From the NCBI RefSeq assembly GCF_003634555.1, contig NZ_RBKS01000001.1, forward strand, positions 3,472,001-3,536,000: a stretch of DNA of 64,000 bases. The letters are read 5' to 3'. This document shows positions 56,070-64,000 of the stretch, one piece after another (positions within the stretch are counted from its first letter, which is position 1; every line of letters starts with the position of its first letter). The notes under the pieces were generated by a model that was not told the DNA's origin, searched no databases, and worked only from the letters and a program-made list of their open reading frames with translations. Position numbers and translations under genes: made by a program. Source of the DNA: Frondihabitans australicus. Lineage in GTDB: Bacteria > Actinomycetota > Actinomycetes > Actinomycetales > Microbacteriaceae.

Positions 56070-56594
56070 TTACCGGGCGGGGCGGAGAAGTGCGGGGACG
56101 AGCACCAGGGCCGCCAGGGCGAGGGCCGCGACGGACGCGACGACGGCGAGCCAGACGACGCCCTGTGCCCCGGGCGCCAGCAGGGTGAGCACGGCGAACG
56201 CGATGGCCTGGCAGGCGACCTGCACCGCCACGTAGCGGAGGAGCGGGGCTCGCAGGAGCCGCAGCTGCACCCGCGCCCGCAGCGGAAGCCAGGCGCACAG
56301 GCTGCCGAGCGTGAAGAGCAGGTGCCCGGCCGCGAGGACGACGGCGAACTGCCACGTGTAGCCGCGAGGGCCTGCCACGACGAGCGCGAACGCCCACTGC
56401 AGGGTCAGCAGGGCGACCATCGGCCCGCGCGGCAGGAGCATGGCGCCGAGGATCAGCAGCAGCGACACGACCAGCCAGCCGCTGACTCCGATCGCGACCC
56501 AGGCACCCAGGATCCCGACGACACCCGTCGCCGCGGTGAGGACGAGCGCCGGCATCGTCCGCCCGAGCGCGGGGAACCCGGGGGCGCGGCTCAT
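56070..56594 (-). CDS. Hypothetical membrane protein, last gene of the MoxR operon
   Basis: 174 residues with four or five membrane helices (about 15-60, 62-80, 84-105, 122-145, 150-170). No catalytic motif. ATG 56594 overlaps the DUF58 stop (4 bases), so it is part of the operon. In many MoxR-DUF58 operons this place is held by a large transglutaminase (TgpA); this small protein aligns in position only. Confidence 0.7.
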   Translation of the reverse strand: MSRAPGFPALGRTMPALVLTAATGVVGILGAWVAIGVSGWLVVSLLLILGAMLLPRGPMVALLTLQWAFALVVAGPRGYTWQFAVVLAAGHLLFTLGSLCAWLPLRARVQLRLLRAPLLRYVAVQVACQAIAFAVLTLLAPGAQGVVWLAVVASVAALALAALVLVPALLRPAR

Positions 56595-57952
56595 CGCACC
56601 CTCCTGGGTCGGCTCAGCATGCGCAGCTGCACGCTCGCCGGCATCGACGAGGGGCCCGTGCCGCCCTTCAGCGGCTGCCAGCGCACCGGCTCGACGCCCG
56701 AGGCGACCATGCCGTCGATCCGATCGTTCCGCTCGACCATGATCAGGCTGTAGGCGGCGCGTTCCTCGTGGGTGAGGCGCCGCACGTCGGGCTCCGGCAG
56801 GGTGTCGACGGCGATCACCCGGTGCCCGGTCGAGGCCCAGGAGATGGCCATGGTCGCGGCGGGGTCGTCGAGGAAGGTCGACAGGACGATCACGAGCGAG
56901 GACGCGGGCACGAGCGGGGTTCGCGCGTTGCGCACGGGCTCGCCGGTCGGCGCCGCGAGGGCGATCGTGGACTGCAGGCGCTCGAGGTGCCGGGTGCTCC
57001 CGCCGGGCTCGACGGAGCGGGCAGTCCCCGCGAGGTCGCGCAGGCCGACCCGGTCGCCGGCCGCGATGTACGCGGCGGCGAGCGACGACGCGGCCTCGCG
57101 GCCGAGGTCGAGGGAGGTCGCGTCGGCCGTGGCGCCGCGCGCTCCCGACCAGAGCGAGACGTCGGGGCCGAGCTCGTCGCGATCGTCGAGCACGAGCATG
57201 ACGATGGCGTCGGCGGTCGAGAAGCTGCGGCGCACGTAGAGCTCGCCGGGCCGCTGGGAACGCCTCGCGGTCGCCTTCCAGTCGATCCGGCGGAGCCGGT
57301 CGCCCGGGGCGAAGAGCGCGATGTCGCGGAACTCACCGCCGTCACCCGGGGTCGCCGACGAGTGTGCGCCGGTGATGCCGACGACCCGGTGCGGCAGCGG
57401 GAGGCTCTCCATGCGCAGCCGCGGCGGCGGGATCAGCCGTCGGCTCGCGGGGCCGGGGTCGGGCGACGTGAGGGCGGTGCCGCGGGCGCCGAGCAGCGAG
57501 TAGTGCAGGCGGACTATCTCTTGCGGGCCGGAGTGGGTGACCGGGATCCTGCCGCCCACACCCGCCCTGGCCGTCTCGGCGTCGACGGCGAAGCGGTGCG
57601 TGAGGTTGTCGGCCGAGACCAGTTGCACGGCGACGCCGTCGACGGCGTCGGGCAGGTCGAAGGTGATGCGGTACCCGACGCCGGTGGCGTCGTCGTCGGG
57701 GGCCAGGCGCGTGCCGACCGTCACCTCGGCGTCGCGCCGGGGCCGCCGGTCGAGGCCCAGAGCGATGCCCAGGATCGCCGGGAGCGCGAGCAGGGCGAAC
57801 TCCGCGCGGCCCGAGACGAGCGCCACCCCGAGCAGCAGCGCGACTCCGGCCCCGCTGAACGCCACGGGCGGAGTCACCGACCAGCGTGGGCGCTCGCGCG
57901 TGGTGTCGGCAGGCGGGGCGGGCGGGCCGGCGTCGGGGGGTGGGGGTGTCAC
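56591..57952 (-). CDS. DUF58-domain protein
   Basis: 453 residues: two N-terminal membrane helices (about 30-65), then a beta-domain and a von Willebrand-like DUF58 region with the signature FRDIALFAPGDRLRRIDWKA (about 208-227) and the MIDAS-like strand AIVMLVLDDRDELG. DUF58 proteins are thought to be clients or adaptors of MoxR ATPases. GTG 57952 overlaps the moxR stop (GTGA). Confidence 0.9.
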   Translation of the reverse strand: MTPPPPDAGPPAPPADTTRERPRWSVTPPVAFSGAGVALLLGVALVSGRAEFALLALPAILGIALGLDRRPRRDAEVTVGTRLAPDDDATGVGYRITFDLPDAVDGVAVQLVSADNLTHRFAVDAETARAGVGGRIPVTHSGPQEIVRLHYSLLGARGTALTSPDPGPASRRLIPPPRLRMESLPLPHRVVGITGAHSSATPGDGGEFRDIALFAPGDRLRRIDWKATARRSQRPGELYVRRSFSTADAIVMLVLDDRDELGPDVSLWSGARGATADATSLDLGREAASSLAAAYIAAGDRVGLRDLAGTARSVEPGGSTRHLERLQSTIALAAPTGEPVRNARTPLVPASSLVIVLSTFLDDPAATMAISWASTGHRVIAVDTLPEPDVRRLTHEERAAYSLIMVERNDRIDGMVASGVEPVRWQPLKGGTGPSSMPASVQLRMLSRPRRVR

Positions 57953-59010
57953 GCGGGCTCCTGCGACCCGGTCGAGAGCGCCCCGCCGACGGACGGCGCG
58001 GCCGCCTGCGAGCCGGCACCGCGAGCCCCGACCGCGGGCGGGCCGGCGACCTGGGCGACGATGCCGGTGACGACGGCGGCCGCGTCGACGCCGTTCGCCC
58101 AGGCCTGCGGCGTCAGAGAGATGCGGTGGGCGAGGACGGGGACGGCGGCGGCCTTGACGTCTTCCGGGGCGACGAAGTCGCGGCCCTCCATGACCGCGCG
58201 GGCGCGGCCGACGAGCATGAGGCCCTGGGCGCCGCGCGGCGAGGCGCCGACCTGCACGTCGCGGTGCGTCCGGGTGCCGTTGACGAGGTCGACGCAGTAC
58301 AGAGCGATGTCGGGGTCGACGTGCACGCTCTCGACGGTCGCCTGCATCGAGCGGAGGGTCTCGGGCGTGATGACGGCCTCGACGCTGGCGACCTCGCGCT
58401 GCCGGGCGACGCGGTTCAGGAGCACGCGCTGCTCGCTCTCGCGGCTCGGGTAGCCGACCGACAGGCGCACCATGAAGCGGTCGAGCTGCGCCTCGGGCAG
58501 CGCGTAGGTGCCCTCGTACTCGATCGGGTTCGACGTCGCTATGACGTGGAACGGGCTCGGCAGCGGGAAGCTCTGCCCCTCGACCGTCACCTGCCCCTCC
58601 GCCATCGCCTCGAGGAGCGCAGACTGCGTCTTCGGCGACGTGCGGTTGATCTCGTCGGCCAGGAAGAGCCCGGTGAAGACCGGGCCGGGCCGGAACACGA
58701 ACTCAGCCTCGGCCGGGGCGTAGAGGAACGAGCCGGTGATGTCGGCGGGCAGCAGGTCGGGCGTGCACTGCAGGCGACGGAAGTCGAGGCCGGTCGCCTC
58801 GGCGATGCTGCGTGCGGCGAGCGTTTTGCCGAGACCCGGGACGTCCTCGAAGAGCACGTGACCGCCGGCCAGGATGCTCGCCAGGGCCAGCTCGAGCGGC
58901 TCGCGCATTCCGACGACGACGCTGCCGACCTGCTCGAGGATCGCGGCGGACAGTCGCGAGACGTCGCCGATCGAGAGGGCGGGCTCGGTGGAGGGGGTGG
59001 ACGTCGTCAC
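57949..59010 (-). CDS. moxR: MoxR-family AAA+ ATPase
   Basis: 353 residues. AAA+ core: Walker A EDVPGLGKTLAARSIA (about 58), FLYAPAEAEFVFRPGPVFTG, Walker B LFLADEINRTSP (about 118-129), sensor HVIATSNPIEYEGTYALPEA and a C-terminal helical lid. A chaperone-like ATPase that matures or inserts metal cofactors in partner proteins. GTG 59010 and its own stop both overlap neighbours by 4 bases. The C-terminal 40 residues are Ala/Gly-rich. Confidence 0.94.
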   Translation of the reverse strand: MTTSTPSTEPALSIGDVSRLSAAILEQVGSVVVGMREPLELALASILAGGHVLFEDVPGLGKTLAARSIAEATGLDFRRLQCTPDLLPADITGSFLYAPAEAEFVFRPGPVFTGLFLADEINRTSPKTQSALLEAMAEGQVTVEGQSFPLPSPFHVIATSNPIEYEGTYALPEAQLDRFMVRLSVGYPSRESEQRVLLNRVARQREVASVEAVITPETLRSMQATVESVHVDPDIALYCVDLVNGTRTHRDVQVGASPRGAQGLMLVGRARAVMEGRDFVAPEDVKAAAVPVLAHRISLTPQAWANGVDAAAVVTGIVAQVAGPPAVGARGAGSQAAAPSVGGALSTGSQEPA

Positions 59011-59549
59011 GGGCGGAAGTGCCTCTCGGTGCTGGTGCCGGCGTGTCCGCCGGGCGCGGACGGGCTGCCGAGCCGCTCGAGGGCGGTCAGGCAGCGCGTG
59101 AAGGTGGACAGGTTCAGATTGTTCTGAGACGGCGTGAGCAGGATCCGCACCACACCCGGCGCGAGATACCTCTCGACGGCCTCCCGGTCGGCGGGGTCGT
59201 ACAGGTCGAGGCCGTAGAGGAAGAGGAGTCGGTGCCGTGTCGCCTCGCGGACCCGGGCGAGCGACTGCCCGCCGACGCCGCCGCGCGTCTTCATCGACCA
59301 GCTCAGCGTCTCGAGGTCGCGCCGAGCGCCGGGCGTGCGGCGAGCGGGAGGCTTCGGCCAGTCGATCTTCTCGCCCTCCTGCACGGCGATCCAGGTGGCG
59401 CCGACCGCGGCGAAAGCGACGGCCACGAGGGCCGACTGCGGGATTCCGAGGCCGAAGTACCAGACCACCCCGCCGATGACGACGGCGAAGACGATCACCG
59501 CGACGGAGAGCCGGCGCAGCGGGGGAGCGAAGAACCGCACGCCCTTCAC
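59007..59549 (-). CDS. Membrane-anchored protein of the MoxR operon
   Basis: 180 residues; a paired membrane hairpin (about 12-48: VAVIVFAVVIGGVVWYFG, then ALVAVAFAAVGATWIAV) and a cytosolic domain with REATRHRLLFLYGLDLYDP and VRILLTPSQNNLNLSTF. No named family. GTG 59549 overlaps the DUF4129 stop and its own stop overlaps moxR, so it is translated in series with them. Confidence 0.8.
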   Translation of the reverse strand: MKGVRFFAPPLRRLSVAVIVFAVVIGGVVWYFGLGIPQSALVAVAFAAVGATWIAVQEGEKIDWPKPPARRTPGARRDLETLSWSMKTRGGVGGQSLARVREATRHRLLFLYGLDLYDPADREAVERYLAPGVVRILLTPSQNNLNLSTFTRCLTALERLGSPSAPGGHAGTSTERHFRP

Positions 59550-60268
59550 GACGTGGCCGCCCATTGCCGCTGCAGCGTGAGGAGGGCGGAGCGCGCCGTG
59601 TCGACGTCGTCGTCCGTGGCGACGTGGTCGCCGAACCGAACACCGAGATAGAGGCGCCGGAGCTCGGCGAGAGCCGCCGGGTCGACGTCGACGCGCCGGA
59701 GGATCCTCGTCGTGAACTCCGTCGGCGTCTCGGCGCTCTGGCGCTGGAAGCCCGCGTCCTCCGCAGCCTCCTGCAGGCCGAGCCACGCCTCGACGATCGC
59801 GTCGGTCGGCCGACGACCACCGTCGAGCGCATCGAGCGCTCGCTCGAGGCCGCGCCGCAGGTAGGGCATACTCGTCTCGATCGAGGGGTCGTCGGGGAGG
59901 CTCTCGAGGTCGGGCACGGCCTGGAGCTCGCCGCCCGTCCCGTCCGGCCGGCGACGCCGGTTCAGCAGCCAGCGCACGACGAAATAGGCGATCGCCGCCA
60001 GGAGGACGACGCCGAGCACGATCGCGATCCAGCCCAGGTTCGGCACGTGCACCGCGGTGACCGGGGGCTTCGGCGTCGGGGTGCCTGACCCCTGCGGCAT
60101 CGGCGTGCTCGTGATCACCGCCCTGGTGGGGTGGAAACCCGGAAGCCAGCGCGGCCCGGTGAAGTTCAGGGAGCCGCCGACGGCGGCACCGACGGCGATG
60201 AGCACGCCCAGACCGCCGGCCACGAGCACCGCGACCGGCGCTCGCCGCTCGGTCGTGGGCTCCGCCAT
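59546..60268 (-). CDS. DUF4129-domain protein, first gene of the MoxR operon
   Basis: 240 residues: signal/first helix (about 11-30), a short outside segment, a second helix (about 82-105), then a C-terminal DUF4129 region with DPSIETSMPYLRRGLERALDAL and TPTEFTTRILRRVDVDP (the conserved 'TPxEF' motif). The family normally sits beside transglutaminase and MoxR genes. ATG 60268 is 7 bases after TAGCGT (60276-60281), a leaderless start for the whole five-gene operon. Confidence 0.85.
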   Translation of the reverse strand: MAEPTTERRAPVAVLVAGGLGVLIAVGAAVGGSLNFTGPRWLPGFHPTRAVITSTPMPQGSGTPTPKPPVTAVHVPNLGWIAIVLGVVLLAAIAYFVVRWLLNRRRRPDGTGGELQAVPDLESLPDDPSIETSMPYLRRGLERALDALDGGRRPTDAIVEAWLGLQEAAEDAGFQRQSAETPTEFTTRILRRVDVDPAALAELRRLYLGVRFGDHVATDDDVDTARSALLTLQRQWAATS

Positions 60269-60376: not shown

Positions 60377-61213
60377 TCAGACGGCCGCAGGCACGCCGGC
60401 CCGCAGGGGAGCCGTGGAGGACGCGGTGATGCCGAGGCCGTCGAGCGCCTTCTCGAAGATCCGGAGACCTTTCATGCCGGGCAGGCCGGCGATGTTGGCG
60501 TCGAGCTTCTGGATCTCCTTGCGACCCTCGGGGCCCGACATGATCTGGTTGAAGACGAACTGGACGTCCTCGCGCTCGCTGATGCTCGAGCCGACGGGCG
60601 CCCAGAATTTCGAGAGCAGGAGTCGGGTGAGCTTCTGTGCGCGGGTGCTCTTGAGCAGGCGCTCGCGGGCCTGCGACACGTAGAAGGCGACGTGACGCGT
60701 CTCCTGCTTCGCGATGCGGCGCAGGAGCTCGCCCAGCACCGGATCGGTCTCGAGGTCGGCCATGCGCTTGTACGCGCTCACGGCGGACCACTCGTTCGCC
60801 GCACCCCACGACATGTGCACGGCAACGAAGTCGCTGCCGACGATCTTGCCGAGCATGGACTGCTTGATCGGGTCGAGGCGGTCGCGCCAGCCGAGCTTGA
60901 GGCGGGAAGCCCGGAGGGCGTCGTAGTCGACGGTGATGCCGTGGACGTCGAGGACGGCGCCGAGAGCCTCGCCGTGCCAGAACTCCTCGCGGTTCCACAT
61001 CGTCATGAACGTGGAGATGTCGCCCTCCTTGTGCGAGGGCGTGGTGAGGAGGTCACGGGTGTAGCAGACGGTGTGGTACTCGACGTCGCACATGTACCGG
61101 AGCACACGGAGCGACTCGGGTGAGAGCGGGTTCTGCCGGAAGTGATCGAGATCGAGGTCGTCCCAGCCGAGGCGCTCTGAGCCGGCGGCGTACTTGTCGA
61201 TGTCGAATGCCAT
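60377..61213 (-). CDS. Ferritin-like diiron protein (putative acyl-modifying oxygenase)
   Basis: 278 residues, all helical, with a complete diiron ligand set in the order of acyl-ACP-desaturase-like proteins: CDVEYHTVCY (about 45), NREEFWHGEALG (about 74-85, ExxH), GAANEWSAVSAY (about 136) and KQETRHVAFYV (about 167, ExxRH). No signal or membrane segment. It follows the acyl reductase-HAD gene by 48 bases, with a dyad in the gap. A paralogue (63607) lies at the other end of the cluster. It could oxidise or desaturate a fatty acyl or aldehyde group. The class is sure, the reaction unproven. Confidence 0.8.
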   Translation of the reverse strand: MAFDIDKYAAGSERLGWDDLDLDHFRQNPLSPESLRVLRYMCDVEYHTVCYTRDLLTTPSHKEGDISTFMTMWNREEFWHGEALGAVLDVHGITVDYDALRASRLKLGWRDRLDPIKQSMLGKIVGSDFVAVHMSWGAANEWSAVSAYKRMADLETDPVLGELLRRIAKQETRHVAFYVSQARERLLKSTRAQKLTRLLLSKFWAPVGSSISEREDVQFVFNQIMSGPEGRKEIQKLDANIAGLPGMKGLRIFEKALDGLGITASSTAPLRAGVPAAV

Positions 61214-61226
61214 TGCATACCGGAGG

Positions 61227-61241
61227 CGGCATATATTGCCG
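61227..61241. promoter_or_regulatory. Dyad just upstream of the ferritin-like gene
   Basis: CGGCA-TATAT-TGCCG, 14 bases before ATG 61213 in the 48-base gap after the reductase gene. GGAAGGAG near 61252-61259 is too far from the start to be its ribosome site. The dyad may be an operator or may limit translation. Confidence 0.35.
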
Positions 61242-61261
61242 ACTCCTGCTCCTTCCGGGTT

Positions 61262-63610
61262 CTACGCGTCTGCGACGCCTGTCGACGATTGTATGTACTT
61301 CGAGGTCTCGCCGTAAGGGCCTCGCTTCCAGTTTCGGATCGCCCACCTTCTTCGGAGGGCCTCCCGAGACAGATTGGGGTCGGGGTTCACCGCACTGGGA
61401 TTTCCCAGGAGTTCCAGCCAGACGAGGTCGGAGTGGCTGTCTCCGTAGCCGTACGAGGAGGCCAGATCGAAGCCGTTCCGTTCGGCGTACTGCTTCAGCC
61501 AGGCCGCCCTCGCCTCGTCGACGAGCGGCGGTGCCGCGAGGTACCCGGTGAAGATGCCGTCACGGGCATGCATCGTTCCGGCGACGACCTCGTCGAAGAG
61601 CCCGGCCAGCGGCTGCGCGAGCGTGCCGATTGAGCCGGTGACCAGGATCGTGCGATGGCCGGCCGCGCGGTGGGCCGCGATCCGCTCCAGCGCCTCGGGC
61701 ATGGTGTGCCGCAGCATCGTCTGCGCGAAGCCCTTCGAGACGACCTCCTCGAGCCGCGCGACGGGCATCCCCTCGTAGCGCCTCAGGAACGACCGGATGA
61801 ACTCGCCGCGGTCTCGCTGCTCGGCGCGGAGGTAGCTCGGCAGGGAGGCCAGCAGGGAGGCGACCTCGCCCGGCCAGGCGGCCTTCCCGAATCCTGCGCC
61901 CCTAACCCAGAGGTACTGCTCGACGATGTTGGAGTCGACGACGGTGCCCTCGAGGTCGAACACCGCCACGATGTCGCTGCGCTGGGGCAGCGGCGGCTCG
62001 GCCCGCTCGACGGAGCCGCCGCGCACGGAGAACGCGCGGGTCATCGTCGTGATCGCCGGGAAGTGGATCTCCTGGAAGAACTGCTCCCAGTCGATGTCGG
62101 TCACGTCGAAGCCGACGTCGACCGACACCTCGGCCGGCTGCGTGGCGACGAGACGGGCCTGGAGGGCCTTCGTGTGGCCGTCGTCGAAGATGATCTCGGA
62201 CTGGATGTAGTGACGGTAGAGGTCGGTGAGGCTCTGCAGCGACTCGAGGTTGCCTCGCCGCTCGTCGACGTCGGCCAGGATCCGCCTGGTCCGGTCGCTC
62301 GCGGGCAGCCGGACCACGAGGCGCTCGCGGGCGTCGTTGATCCGAGCCCGGAGGCGGACGGCGCGCTCGACGCGACGGACGCCGGGGAACCGCCAGTCGG
62401 CGGCCTCGATCGAGCCCTGGTCGGGCGTCGGCACCGGGTGCGCCGTGAAGAACCGGTTGAGGTTCGTGAACATCCGGTGGATCGGGAACGGGTTGCTCGC
62501 ACCCGACGACGAGTGGAAGTACTGGGGCTCGCCCGCGGGAGCGGGATTCGCGGCGACGAGCAGGATCACGTTCACGACGAAGTCGACCGGGATCACGTCG
62601 AGGACGCTGTCGGGCACGCCAGGGAACTCGGGCAGCATGCCGCGGCCGTAGGCCATGATCAGCGGGTCGGCGACCTTGAACCCGTCGATCCAGCCTGGGT
62701 ACGGGTGCCGCAGGGCGCTCTCGACGATCGCGGGCCGCACGAACGAGAGTCGGTGGCCGGCGGCAGCCCACATCTGCTCGGCGGCGCGCTCGGCGAACGC
62801 CTTGGTGAGCGTGTAGACGTCCGTCCAGCCGAGGCTCTCCGCGCGGGTGCGGCCGTGGTCGACGAGCTTCGCCTTGACCCAGGCGACCCGCGCCTCCTCG
62901 GCGTGGCTCGAGACCGCGAGCGGCCCCTCCTTGCCGTGCTTCGCGCGCGCCTCGGCCAGGAAGCGCCGCAGCACCTCGGGCTGGCGCGACGCAAGCTCGA
63001 CGCGGGAGCGCGCGGCCCGGGCGGCTTCGAACTCGGCCCGCCAGTCGACGTCGTGCGTCAGCGACGCCTCGGGGAAGATGCCCTTGCGCAGGCCGCCGAC
63101 GTAGGCGGTCGACACGTGGACGACGTGCGGGTCGGTGCCCGTCGCGAGCAGCGCCTCGTAGAGCCCGACCGCGCCGCCGACGTTCGTCTCGAACGCCTGG
63201 TCGATCGGCGGGTCGAACGACACGCTCGACGCCGAGTGGATCACGAGATCGAGGTCGTTCGGCAGGGGCGGAACCGAGTCGAGCCCGCCCTCGAGCACGC
63301 GCAGGCGCTCGGCGATGGCCTTCTCGACGCCCTCGGCCCCGACCTCCTCGCGCCAGCGCTTGAACACCGGCTTGCGCAGGAGGTGGCGCAGACGGTCGTC
63401 GCCCGAGGTCGAGCCTTTCGTGCGGATCAGCAGCGAGACCGTGGTCGCAGGATGATCGGACAGCAGCCGCTCGAGAATGGCCTGGCCGACGAACCCGGTG
63501 CCCCCGGTGAGCAGCACGTGCGCCGACCCGAGCGAGACCCCGAGGCCCTCGAACGCGAGGCCGTCGTCGAACGCCGGCACAGCTGGCCCCTTCGGTGCGC
63601 GCGGGCTCAC
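61262..63610 (-). CDS. Fatty acyl reductase-like / HAD phosphatase fusion
   Basis: 782 residues, two enzymes in one chain. About 25-380 is a NAD(P)-binding extended SDR of the fatty-acyl-CoA reductase (NAD_binding_4) type: VLLTGGTGFVGQAILERLL (about 32-50), VIHSASSVSFDPP, VHVSTAYVGG, YTLTKAFAERA (Tyr-x3-Lys) and FVRPAIVESA. About 540-765 is a HAD-IB hydrolase: VFDLEGTVVD (about 545; the nucleophile Asp, but with Glu in place of the usual second Asp), TILVTGSIGTLA and YGYGDSHSDLVWLEL. GTG 63610 overlaps the upstream paralogue (GTGA). It would reduce an acyl thioester to aldehyde or alcohol. Confidence 0.85.
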   Translation of the reverse strand: MSPRAPKGPAVPAFDDGLAFEGLGVSLGSAHVLLTGGTGFVGQAILERLLSDHPATTVSLLIRTKGSTSGDDRLRHLLRKPVFKRWREEVGAEGVEKAIAERLRVLEGGLDSVPPLPNDLDLVIHSASSVSFDPPIDQAFETNVGGAVGLYEALLATGTDPHVVHVSTAYVGGLRKGIFPEASLTHDVDWRAEFEAARAARSRVELASRQPEVLRRFLAEARAKHGKEGPLAVSSHAEEARVAWVKAKLVDHGRTRAESLGWTDVYTLTKAFAERAAEQMWAAAGHRLSFVRPAIVESALRHPYPGWIDGFKVADPLIMAYGRGMLPEFPGVPDSVLDVIPVDFVVNVILLVAANPAPAGEPQYFHSSSGASNPFPIHRMFTNLNRFFTAHPVPTPDQGSIEAADWRFPGVRRVERAVRLRARINDARERLVVRLPASDRTRRILADVDERRGNLESLQSLTDLYRHYIQSEIIFDDGHTKALQARLVATQPAEVSVDVGFDVTDIDWEQFFQEIHFPAITTMTRAFSVRGGSVERAEPPLPQRSDIVAVFDLEGTVVDSNIVEQYLWVRGAGFGKAAWPGEVASLLASLPSYLRAEQRDRGEFIRSFLRRYEGMPVARLEEVVSKGFAQTMLRHTMPEALERIAAHRAAGHRTILVTGSIGTLAQPLAGLFDEVVAGTMHARDGIFTGYLAAPPLVDEARAAWLKQYAERNGFDLASSYGYGDSHSDLVWLELLGNPSAVNPDPNLSREALRRRWAIRNWKRGPYGETSKYIQSSTGVADA

Positions 63611-64000
63611 GGGAGGAGCTTCCGGGTCGTCGCCTGGCCGACGCGCGCATCGAGACCGGGCAGCCCGGCGACGCGCGAGCCGATGCTCTCGGCCGCGGCG
63701 AGCCCTTCGGCGTCGCCGAAGACGTAGCGCTCGAACATGTCGCGGTCGGCCGCGGCACGCTCGACGGCCCCGATCGGCCAGACGGCCGTCAGCAGGGCGG
63801 CGCGCGTCTGGCGCACGGCGCGGGTGGAGTCGCGCAGACGCCAGTCCGCCTCGTCGGCGAAGAACGCCTCGTGGCGGGTCTTGATGTGCTGGATGCGCTC
63901 GAGGGTGGCGACGAGCGCCGGCGAGCCGGAGTTCTGTTTCACGCGGTCATATGCCGTTCGAAGTATCCATTCGTCGATGAGGCCGAAGGTCATGTGGGTG
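63607..64000 (-). CDS. Second ferritin-like protein, C-terminal part (cut by window edge)
   Basis: 131 residues remain, and the frame is still open at position 64000. It aligns with the 60377 protein from its residue ~124 onward: HMTFG against HMSWG, DEW against NEW, the TRHxAF block and the tail VAGLPGLD against IAGLPGMK. The ATG at 63993 therefore falls inside the protein and the true start lies beyond the window. One metal ligand has changed: HIKTRH here against KQETRH there, so the Glu of the ExxRH motif is Lys. It overlaps the reductase fusion (GTGA). Confidence 0.8.
   Translation of the reverse strand, partial: THMTFGLIDEWILRTAYDRVKQNSGSPALVATLERIQHIKTRHEAFFADEADWRLRDSTRAVRQTRAALLTAVWPIGAVERAAADRDMFERYVFGDAEGLAAAESIGSRVAGLPGLDARVGQATTRKLLP

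Follow-up and report, generated by a model that had tools for sequence, protein, structure and literature searches.

A conserved six-gene cluster, very likely for ether lipids, with a candidate ferritin-like vinyl-ether desaturase in Frondihabitans australicus and relatives

What would a fatty-acyl-reductase-type enzyme fused to a HAD domain make when its gene lies between two ferritin-like paralogues? Three such genes close the window, by which we mean the whole 64,000-nucleotide stretch of Frondihabitans australicus DNA that was analysed (NCBI RefSeq assembly GCF_003634555.1, contig NZ_RBKS01000001.1; C1:3472001-3536000 of a one-contig, 4.04-Mb genome). A first-pass annotation had likened them to cyanobacterial alkane synthesis and listed an alcohol, aldehyde, hydrocarbon or ether-type lipid as possible products. 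The window end cuts the locus, leaving three of six cluster genes inside, with ferB itself truncated. Here, we report that the six genes very likely form an ether-lipid cluster of aerobic soil bacteria, and we lean towards a reading in which the three window genes are one half of a self-contained cassette for the aerobic synthesis of ether lipids, probably plasmalogens, whose vinyl ether a ferritin-like oxidase would make. The features are as follows (coordinates beyond 64000 are window-equivalent).

60377-61213, minus strand: ferA, an open reading frame (ORF) of 278 amino acids; ferritin-like, diiron-type oxidase, candidate vinyl-ether desaturase
60692-61081, minus strand: span of the presumed FerA metal ligands E45, E77, H80, E141, E171 and H174 (conserved columns)
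61262-63610, minus strand: FAR-HAD fusion, an ORF of 782 amino acids with a GTG start
62564-63511, minus strand: fatty-acyl-reductase-type domain of the fusion (Pfam match PF07993, NAD_binding_4), with TGGTGFVG and YxxxK
61415-61966, minus strand: HAD domain of the fusion (Pfam match PF12710), second Asp of motif I replaced by Glu
63607-64000, minus strand: C-terminal part of ferB, a FerA paralogue apparently without a metal site; the gene extends to 64428
64469-65341, plus strand, beyond the window: short-chain dehydrogenase/reductase (SDR), PF00106
65344-66174, plus strand, beyond the window: PlsC-type acyltransferase, PF01553
about 66171-67880, plus strand, beyond the window: AgpS (FAD oxidase), PF01565 and PF02913

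The gene order is agpS-plsC-sdr / ferB-FAR/HAD-ferA, with sdr-plsC-agpS divergent from ferB across a gap of about 40 bases (start codons chosen by us); a promoter and terminator scan of this divergent intergenic region found nothing. FerB has 273 amino acids in full length from the ATG used (L004 11607-12428). The first-pass layout of three same-strand genes at 63607, 61262 and 60377, with a 4-base overlap and a 48-base gap, is exact: ferB and the fusion overlap by GTGA, as do plsC and agpS, and 48 bases separate the fusion from ferA. Its view of the middle gene as a fatty-acyl-reductase-type SDR joined to a HAD domain was borne out (residues 34-349 match PF07993 at E 3.3e-43, residues 549-732 match PF12710 at E 3.9e-33), as was the mutual homology of the outer two (31% identity over 251 aligned positions, E 9e-40).

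The genes just outside the window point to the product. By its sequence, the FAD oxidase is an alkylglycerone-phosphate synthase (AgpS), the signature enzyme of ether lipids: its closest solved proteins, 2uuu (E 1.3e-119) and 4bby (E 1.3e-91), were both deposited as alkyldihydroxyacetonephosphate synthase, and the next solved protein follows at 9.6e-22. The LSHHHGVG run, whose HHH we take to be catalytic (active-site), aligns identically with 2uuu; in NCBIfam, AgpS gave sub-threshold matches only, the best being GlcD (129.7 bits against a cut-off of 567.9). Together with the acyltransferase and SDR genes, AgpS strongly supports the ether-type lipid among the products listed earlier. The alkane analogy did not hold up, and that pathway was set aside once AgpS, PlsC and SDR had been found. 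A route in which FerA would deformylate an aldehyde supplied by FAR, yielding a hydrocarbon, is now most improbable: as in cyanobacterial AAR/ADO, an acyl reductase does lie beside a ferritin-like protein, and one aldehyde-deformylating oxidase (6d9f, TMq 0.45) was among the Foldseek matches of FerA, but the families differ, the cluster here also has AgpS, PlsC and SDR, enzymes that would build an ether from the fatty alcohol, and no aldehyde-deformylating-oxygenase family was among the Pfam matches of FerA at E up to 10.

Asked whether the three window genes stay together in other genomes, we found that they do, and three more genes with them; conserved across relatives, the arrangement is no accident. 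Of 58 loci retrieved around the fusion in relatives, 35 are from Microbacteriaceae, and 32 of these have all six genes (among the 32, about 7 kb separates ferA and ferB from the fusion in L064, and ferA is set apart in L065-L067). Two exceptions end at contig ends (L048, L091), and L053 keeps the other four genes without ferA or ferB. All six are present, rearranged, in 4/4 loci of family f14, and all five loci of family f12 have sdr, plsC, agpS and the fusion, with ferA and ferB not nearby. The other 14 loci (L077-L090), from other Micrococcales families, carry a fusion of 43-46% identity and no linked AgpS ortholog, with a PlsC match in 7/14 and a distant FAD-oxidase fragment in 2/14; some of these genomes have an AgpS ortholog elsewhere.

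A scan of named genomes with a FerA alignment gave a similar picture. Among the best 80 of 209 relatives, 64 loci had the full cluster in window order, 3 were cut by contig ends, 11 had only ferB-ferA, 1 had ferA alone and 1 lay on a 4.3-kb contig. Within the window's own genus, the cluster was present in 7/7 genomes; it is also complete in genus g191 of family f38 (L195-L198, with another gene order in L195; L199 is cut). Streptomyces sp. NBC_01450 carries the complete cluster in window order on a 2.35-Mb plasmid (NZ_CP109481.1; L212 4813-12792; identities of 61% for the fusion, 62% for FerA and 66% for AgpS), the only match among 72,556 plasmid records, which suggests horizontal spread. Several clusters (L065, L066, L067, L195, L197 and L198) have an additional, weaker PlsC-like gene (26-32%) close to ferA or to the fusion.

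What, then, are the two outer proteins? In the window genus, neither FerA nor FerB matched Pfam or NCBIfam above cut-off. The window FerA scored 17.7 bits against FA_desaturase_2, short of the gathering score of 22.7, and the same family was weakly similar to 45/45 FerA relatives (E <= 0.1, best 3.8e-6). Structural models (FerA, pLDDT 84.6; FerB of L093, pLDDT 91.6) resembled R2-like ligand-binding oxidases, DesA2 and plant acyl-acyl carrier protein (ACP) desaturases in Foldseek, none at E <= 0.001 and with large rmsd. Both lines agree with the earlier description of the pair as ferritin-like. The FerA model reached a TMq of up to 0.60 with castor (stearoyl-ACP) desaturase and up to 0.57 with an R2-like oxidase, at about 15% identity to acyl-ACP desaturases and R2-like oxidases; no match to PF10520 (the CarF/PEDS1 family of membrane proteins with His motifs) was found at E up to 10.

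Six FerA residues are putative metal ligands by their conservation pattern of two Glu and two ExxH: E45, E77, H80, E141, E171 and H174 are all kept in 100/100 near FerA rows, and each in 12-13 of 13 distant rows. FerB kept E77, H80 and E171 in none of 95 rows; Lys stands at position 77 in 88 rows and at position 171 in 89, and all 95 retain E45 and E76. A second alignment of 39 other FerB rows agreed (E77 kept in two, H80 and E171 in none). With these ligands lost, FerB has the look of a pseudo-enzyme partner that is conserved although it lacks a metal site; yeast Rnr4 with Rnr2 offers a comparison. The acyl-ACP desaturases (DesA2, castor) and R2-like oxidases share with FerA the helical fold and the two Glu and two ExxH; unlike them, FerA is linked to ether-lipid genes and paired with a ligand-less paralogue. 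Distant FerA homologues lie beside a weak FerB-like gene in L176-L178 (f12) and convergent with a paaK-like gene in L182 (family f5, G123); those of L176-L178 and L182 stand at 53-56%.

In the fusion, the TG..G and Y/K of the reductase domain are invariant in 58/58 aligned sequences. The HAD domain is more variable: motif I of the window fusion reads DLEGT, and its second Asp, used by ordinary HAD phosphatases, is Glu in 35/44, Asp in 5/44 and His in 4/44 fusions outside L077-L090, and Asp in 9/14 and Ala in 5/14 of the L077-L090 fusions (one truncated fusion dropped). Since this residue is so often replaced, ordinary phosphatase activity of the domain is not assured. In G001, of the same genus, a frameshift at about 10838 of L039 splits the fusion at residue 694/695, through either error or decay. 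Recoding of an in-frame TGA in f12 fusions was considered and rejected (the TGA of L075 is at the C-terminal end, and four other f12 matches end without a stop).

How might these proteins work together? The FAR domain would supply a fatty alcohol by reducing a branched acyl thioester, and the PlsC-type enzyme would acylate dihydroxyacetone phosphate (DHAP), or later the sn-2 position. AgpS would exchange the acyl group for the alcohol, giving alkyl-DHAP, whose ketone the SDR would reduce. After attachment of a head group, FerA, as an O2-using, diiron-type enzyme, would take two hydrogens beside the ether oxygen to leave a vinyl ether, with FerB as its structural or substrate-binding partner. 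What the sequences show is gene content, the identity of AgpS by sequence, conserved order, co-occurrence, and ligands kept in FerA and lost in FerB; every reaction of this pathway is inferred, above all the vinyl-ether step, and for FerA as vinyl-ether desaturase the chances are about even. PF09989, which we take to be a domain of the anaerobic PlsA/PlsR route, was absent from the F. australicus genome in a search positive for 4/14 controls. A CarF search was negative in 199/199 genomes and also in 14/14 controls, and is not used as evidence of absence.

Does FerA occur where AgpS occurs? Counting genomes with both, FerA only, AgpS only and neither, 120 Microbacteriaceae genomes gave 33, 5, 2 and 80, and 296 genomes of the class gave 21, 4, 14 and 257 (AgpS >= 600 bits, FerA >= 400 bits). 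Related genomes are not independent and the thresholds were set after the scores were known, so the Fisher values (7e-22 for Microbacteriaceae and 3e-19 for the class) merely describe the tables. Two of the Microbacteriaceae exceptions, G111 (FerA only) and G117 (AgpS only), are due to contig ends, and the FerA-only genome G320 of the class has a distant AgpS-like protein (36%, 308 bits). L136, with ferA alone at its locus, has an AgpS ortholog on another contig. In genus g166 of f38, 12/12 FerA genomes encode AgpS (762 bits or more) and FAR-HAD (824 bits or more) away from ferA; FerB was not detected in them, the neighbourhood being viewed in 5/12 (L192, L193, L194, L201, L211). Both genomes of f38 g186 have FerA and FAR-HAD and no AgpS ortholog.

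These tables bear on the view that FerA and FerB are a general fatty-acid or phospholipid desaturase merely adjoining ether-lipid genes. The weak FA_desaturase_2 similarity in 45/45 FerA rows, the genomes with ferB-ferA only and the distant FerA homologues (35-56%) in genomes or contexts without linked AgpS speak for it, but FerA and AgpS co-occur strongly even where unlinked and FerA travels with the cluster on the plasmid; we regard this view as unlikely.

Dimethyl acetals (DMAs) are the plasmalogen signature. Carriers of the cluster include Frigoribacterium faeni (L100, L106), Frigoribacterium endophyticum (L104), Agreia bicolorata (L132), Agreia pratensis (L139), Glaciihabitans tibetensis (L134) and Lacisediminihabitans changchengi (L142). 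Extracts from PMC5945732 give iso-16:0 DMA at 6.9-17.0% and anteiso-15:0 DMA at 3.2-11.0% for four Subtercola species, low iso-15:0 DMA (at most 4%) for Agreia, and both C14:0 2-OH (10.3%) and anteiso-15:0 DMA (9.7%) for S. lobariae. According to parts of PMC12823222, C14:0 2OH and anteiso-15:0 aldehyde/DMA were earlier reported in Frigoribacterium faeni, and both are absent from reports on Frigoribacterium endophyticum and Frigoribacterium salinisoli. As far as these excerpts go, DMAs are thus reported for cluster carriers in two genera (Frigoribacterium faeni and Agreia). C14:0 2OH is listed at 17.0% in Frigoribacterium faeni and 4.2% in G. tibetensis, with at most a trace in Lacisediminihabitans profunda and Lysinibacter cavernae (extract of PMC7033078). 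For the aerobic Kineococcus rubinsiae, an extract of PMC7472656 states that the MIDI peak "C14:0 2OH" was anteiso-C15:0 DMA by gas chromatography-mass spectrometry, and its authors suspect the same error in congeners. The major acids of one Agromyces and one Salinibacterium, as excerpted from PMC10713820, include neither DMA nor C14:0 2-OH. For the genera covered by PMC5945732 and PMC7033078, the excerpts list phosphatidylglycerol, diphosphatidylglycerol, glycolipids and unidentified phospho- and aminolipids as polar lipids, with phosphatidylethanolamine not named, so an enzyme for plasmanyl-ethanolamine might be without substrate.

Several observations weigh against a plasmalogen cassette with FerA as its vinyl-ether-forming enzyme. 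Frondihabitans itself is stated, in the excerpted text of PMC5945732, to be without DMAs, its major acids being 18:1 and C14:0 2-OH; it and G. tibetensis fit only if C14:0 2-OH is a misnamed DMA. The excerpt on Frigoribacterium D8 lists C14:0 2OH (17.0%) and anteiso-15:0 aldehyde/DMA separately (PMC12823222), which speaks against every C14:0 2OH being a DMA. Frigoribacterium endophyticum carries the cluster with no DMA reported, a misfit unless DMAs were not analysed, and none of the loci examined could be assigned to Subtercola or Kineococcus. Four Microbacteriaceae genomes (G030, G062, G084, G106) have FerA and truly no AgpS; AgpS occurs without FerA in G105 and in G147 and G178 of f12, and in 14 of the 35 AgpS genomes of the class sample, 12 of the 14 being from one genus (f36 g164). 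The only PF00487 membrane FA_desaturase found in the F. australicus genome (L213, G000:C1:1972506-1973294) is a possible rival enzyme. That FerA need not be confined to ethers is suggested most strongly by a clade with ferB and ferA alone (FerBA-only; Agromyces, Leifsonia and Humibacter), in which the AgpS ortholog is absent from 10/10 genomes searched (L121 excluded).

A tree built from 96 FerA rows places all 13 FerBA-only rows on a single branch (95/84) within the cluster-linked ones (L136 and L169, loci without a visible cluster, are counted among the 76 "cluster" rows). This is most simply read as a single loss of the ether genes and retention of FerBA, perhaps with a changed substrate; as proof against an ether role of FerA, the FerBA-only loci are weakened accordingly, being one branch inside cluster-linked FerA. 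Neighbours of FerBA-only loci differ (epoxide-hydrolase-like in L173, proS and nusA in L174, pth and mfd in L175, as ORF readings) and give no functional clue; tblastx of the flanks was too noisy and went unused.

The cluster might instead stop at alkyl (plasmanyl) ethers, with FerA and FerB oxidising the alkyl or acyl chain in some other way, for example by mid-chain desaturation or by hydroxylation, and an unlinked enzyme making any vinyl ether. The relation of FerA to acyl-ACP desaturases, the persistence of FerBA without AgpS in one clade and the unlinked PF00487 desaturase favour this alternative. Set against it, that clade is a single derived branch, DMAs in carriers require some enzyme that forms vinyl ethers, and the conserved cluster has no oxidase other than FerA for this step. 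We hold the plasmanyl alternative to be rather doubtful, if the most serious one, and continue to favour FerA as the enzyme of the vinyl-ether step.

On the 3' side of ferA, the window carries same-strand genes at 56591-60268 for DUF4129 and DUF58 proteins with an AAA-type ORF (MoxR-like reading) between them; these genes gave no sign of membership in the lipid cluster.

The pathway type is already known. Extracts of PMC9131029 describe the animal plasmalogen pathway (FAR1, GNPAT, AGPS, alkyl-DHAP reductase and PEDS1/TMEM189), with the same steps of acyl reductase, acyltransferase, AgpS and SDR reductase up to the alkyl ether; here, by contrast, the genes form one cluster, FAR is fused to HAD, and ferritin-like FerA with metal-less FerB would replace the membrane desaturase PEDS1. 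Myxococcus xanthus, also an aerobe, has ether-lipid operons (elb and MXAN_1676-1674) with FAR, acyltransferase, AGPS, NAD-dependent dehydrogenase and HAD-like ElbB, but in other domain combinations; its desaturase, CarF, is encoded elsewhere, and the same extracts describe no FerA or FerB for its ether-lipid operons. Anaerobic PlsA/PlsR also yields bacterial plasmalogens, with plsA/plsR in several actinobacterial orders (in part of PMC9702350), but starts by reducing a diacyl lipid and uses neither DHAP nor alcohol. Two 2022 reviews, as excerpted, treat plasmalogens of aerobic bacteria as absent or a myxobacterial exception (PMC9702350, PMC9131029); the words Subtercola and Kineococcus were not found in the one 2022 plasmalogen review searched for them. 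Among the papers listed in searches of open-access literature, with subscription papers outside the search, none connected plasmalogens with this cluster or with any ferritin-like protein. It is an evenly balanced proposition that FerA, with inactive FerB, is a second O2-dependent plasmalogen desaturase, one that arose independently as a ferritin-like equivalent of the membrane enzyme CarF/PEDS1 and would explain the DMAs of aerobic Actinobacteria, some of them labelled C14:0 2-OH.

If this is true, FerA and FerB would be a clean case of an active oxidase retained beside a dead paralogue, and the cluster a compact cassette for producing vinyl-ether lipids. Many aerobic Actinobacteria would then make plasmalogens via the AgpS route with a different desaturase, and the chemotaxonomic puzzle of the Microbacteriaceae, with their DMAs and doubtful 2-hydroxy acids, would gain a genetic explanation.

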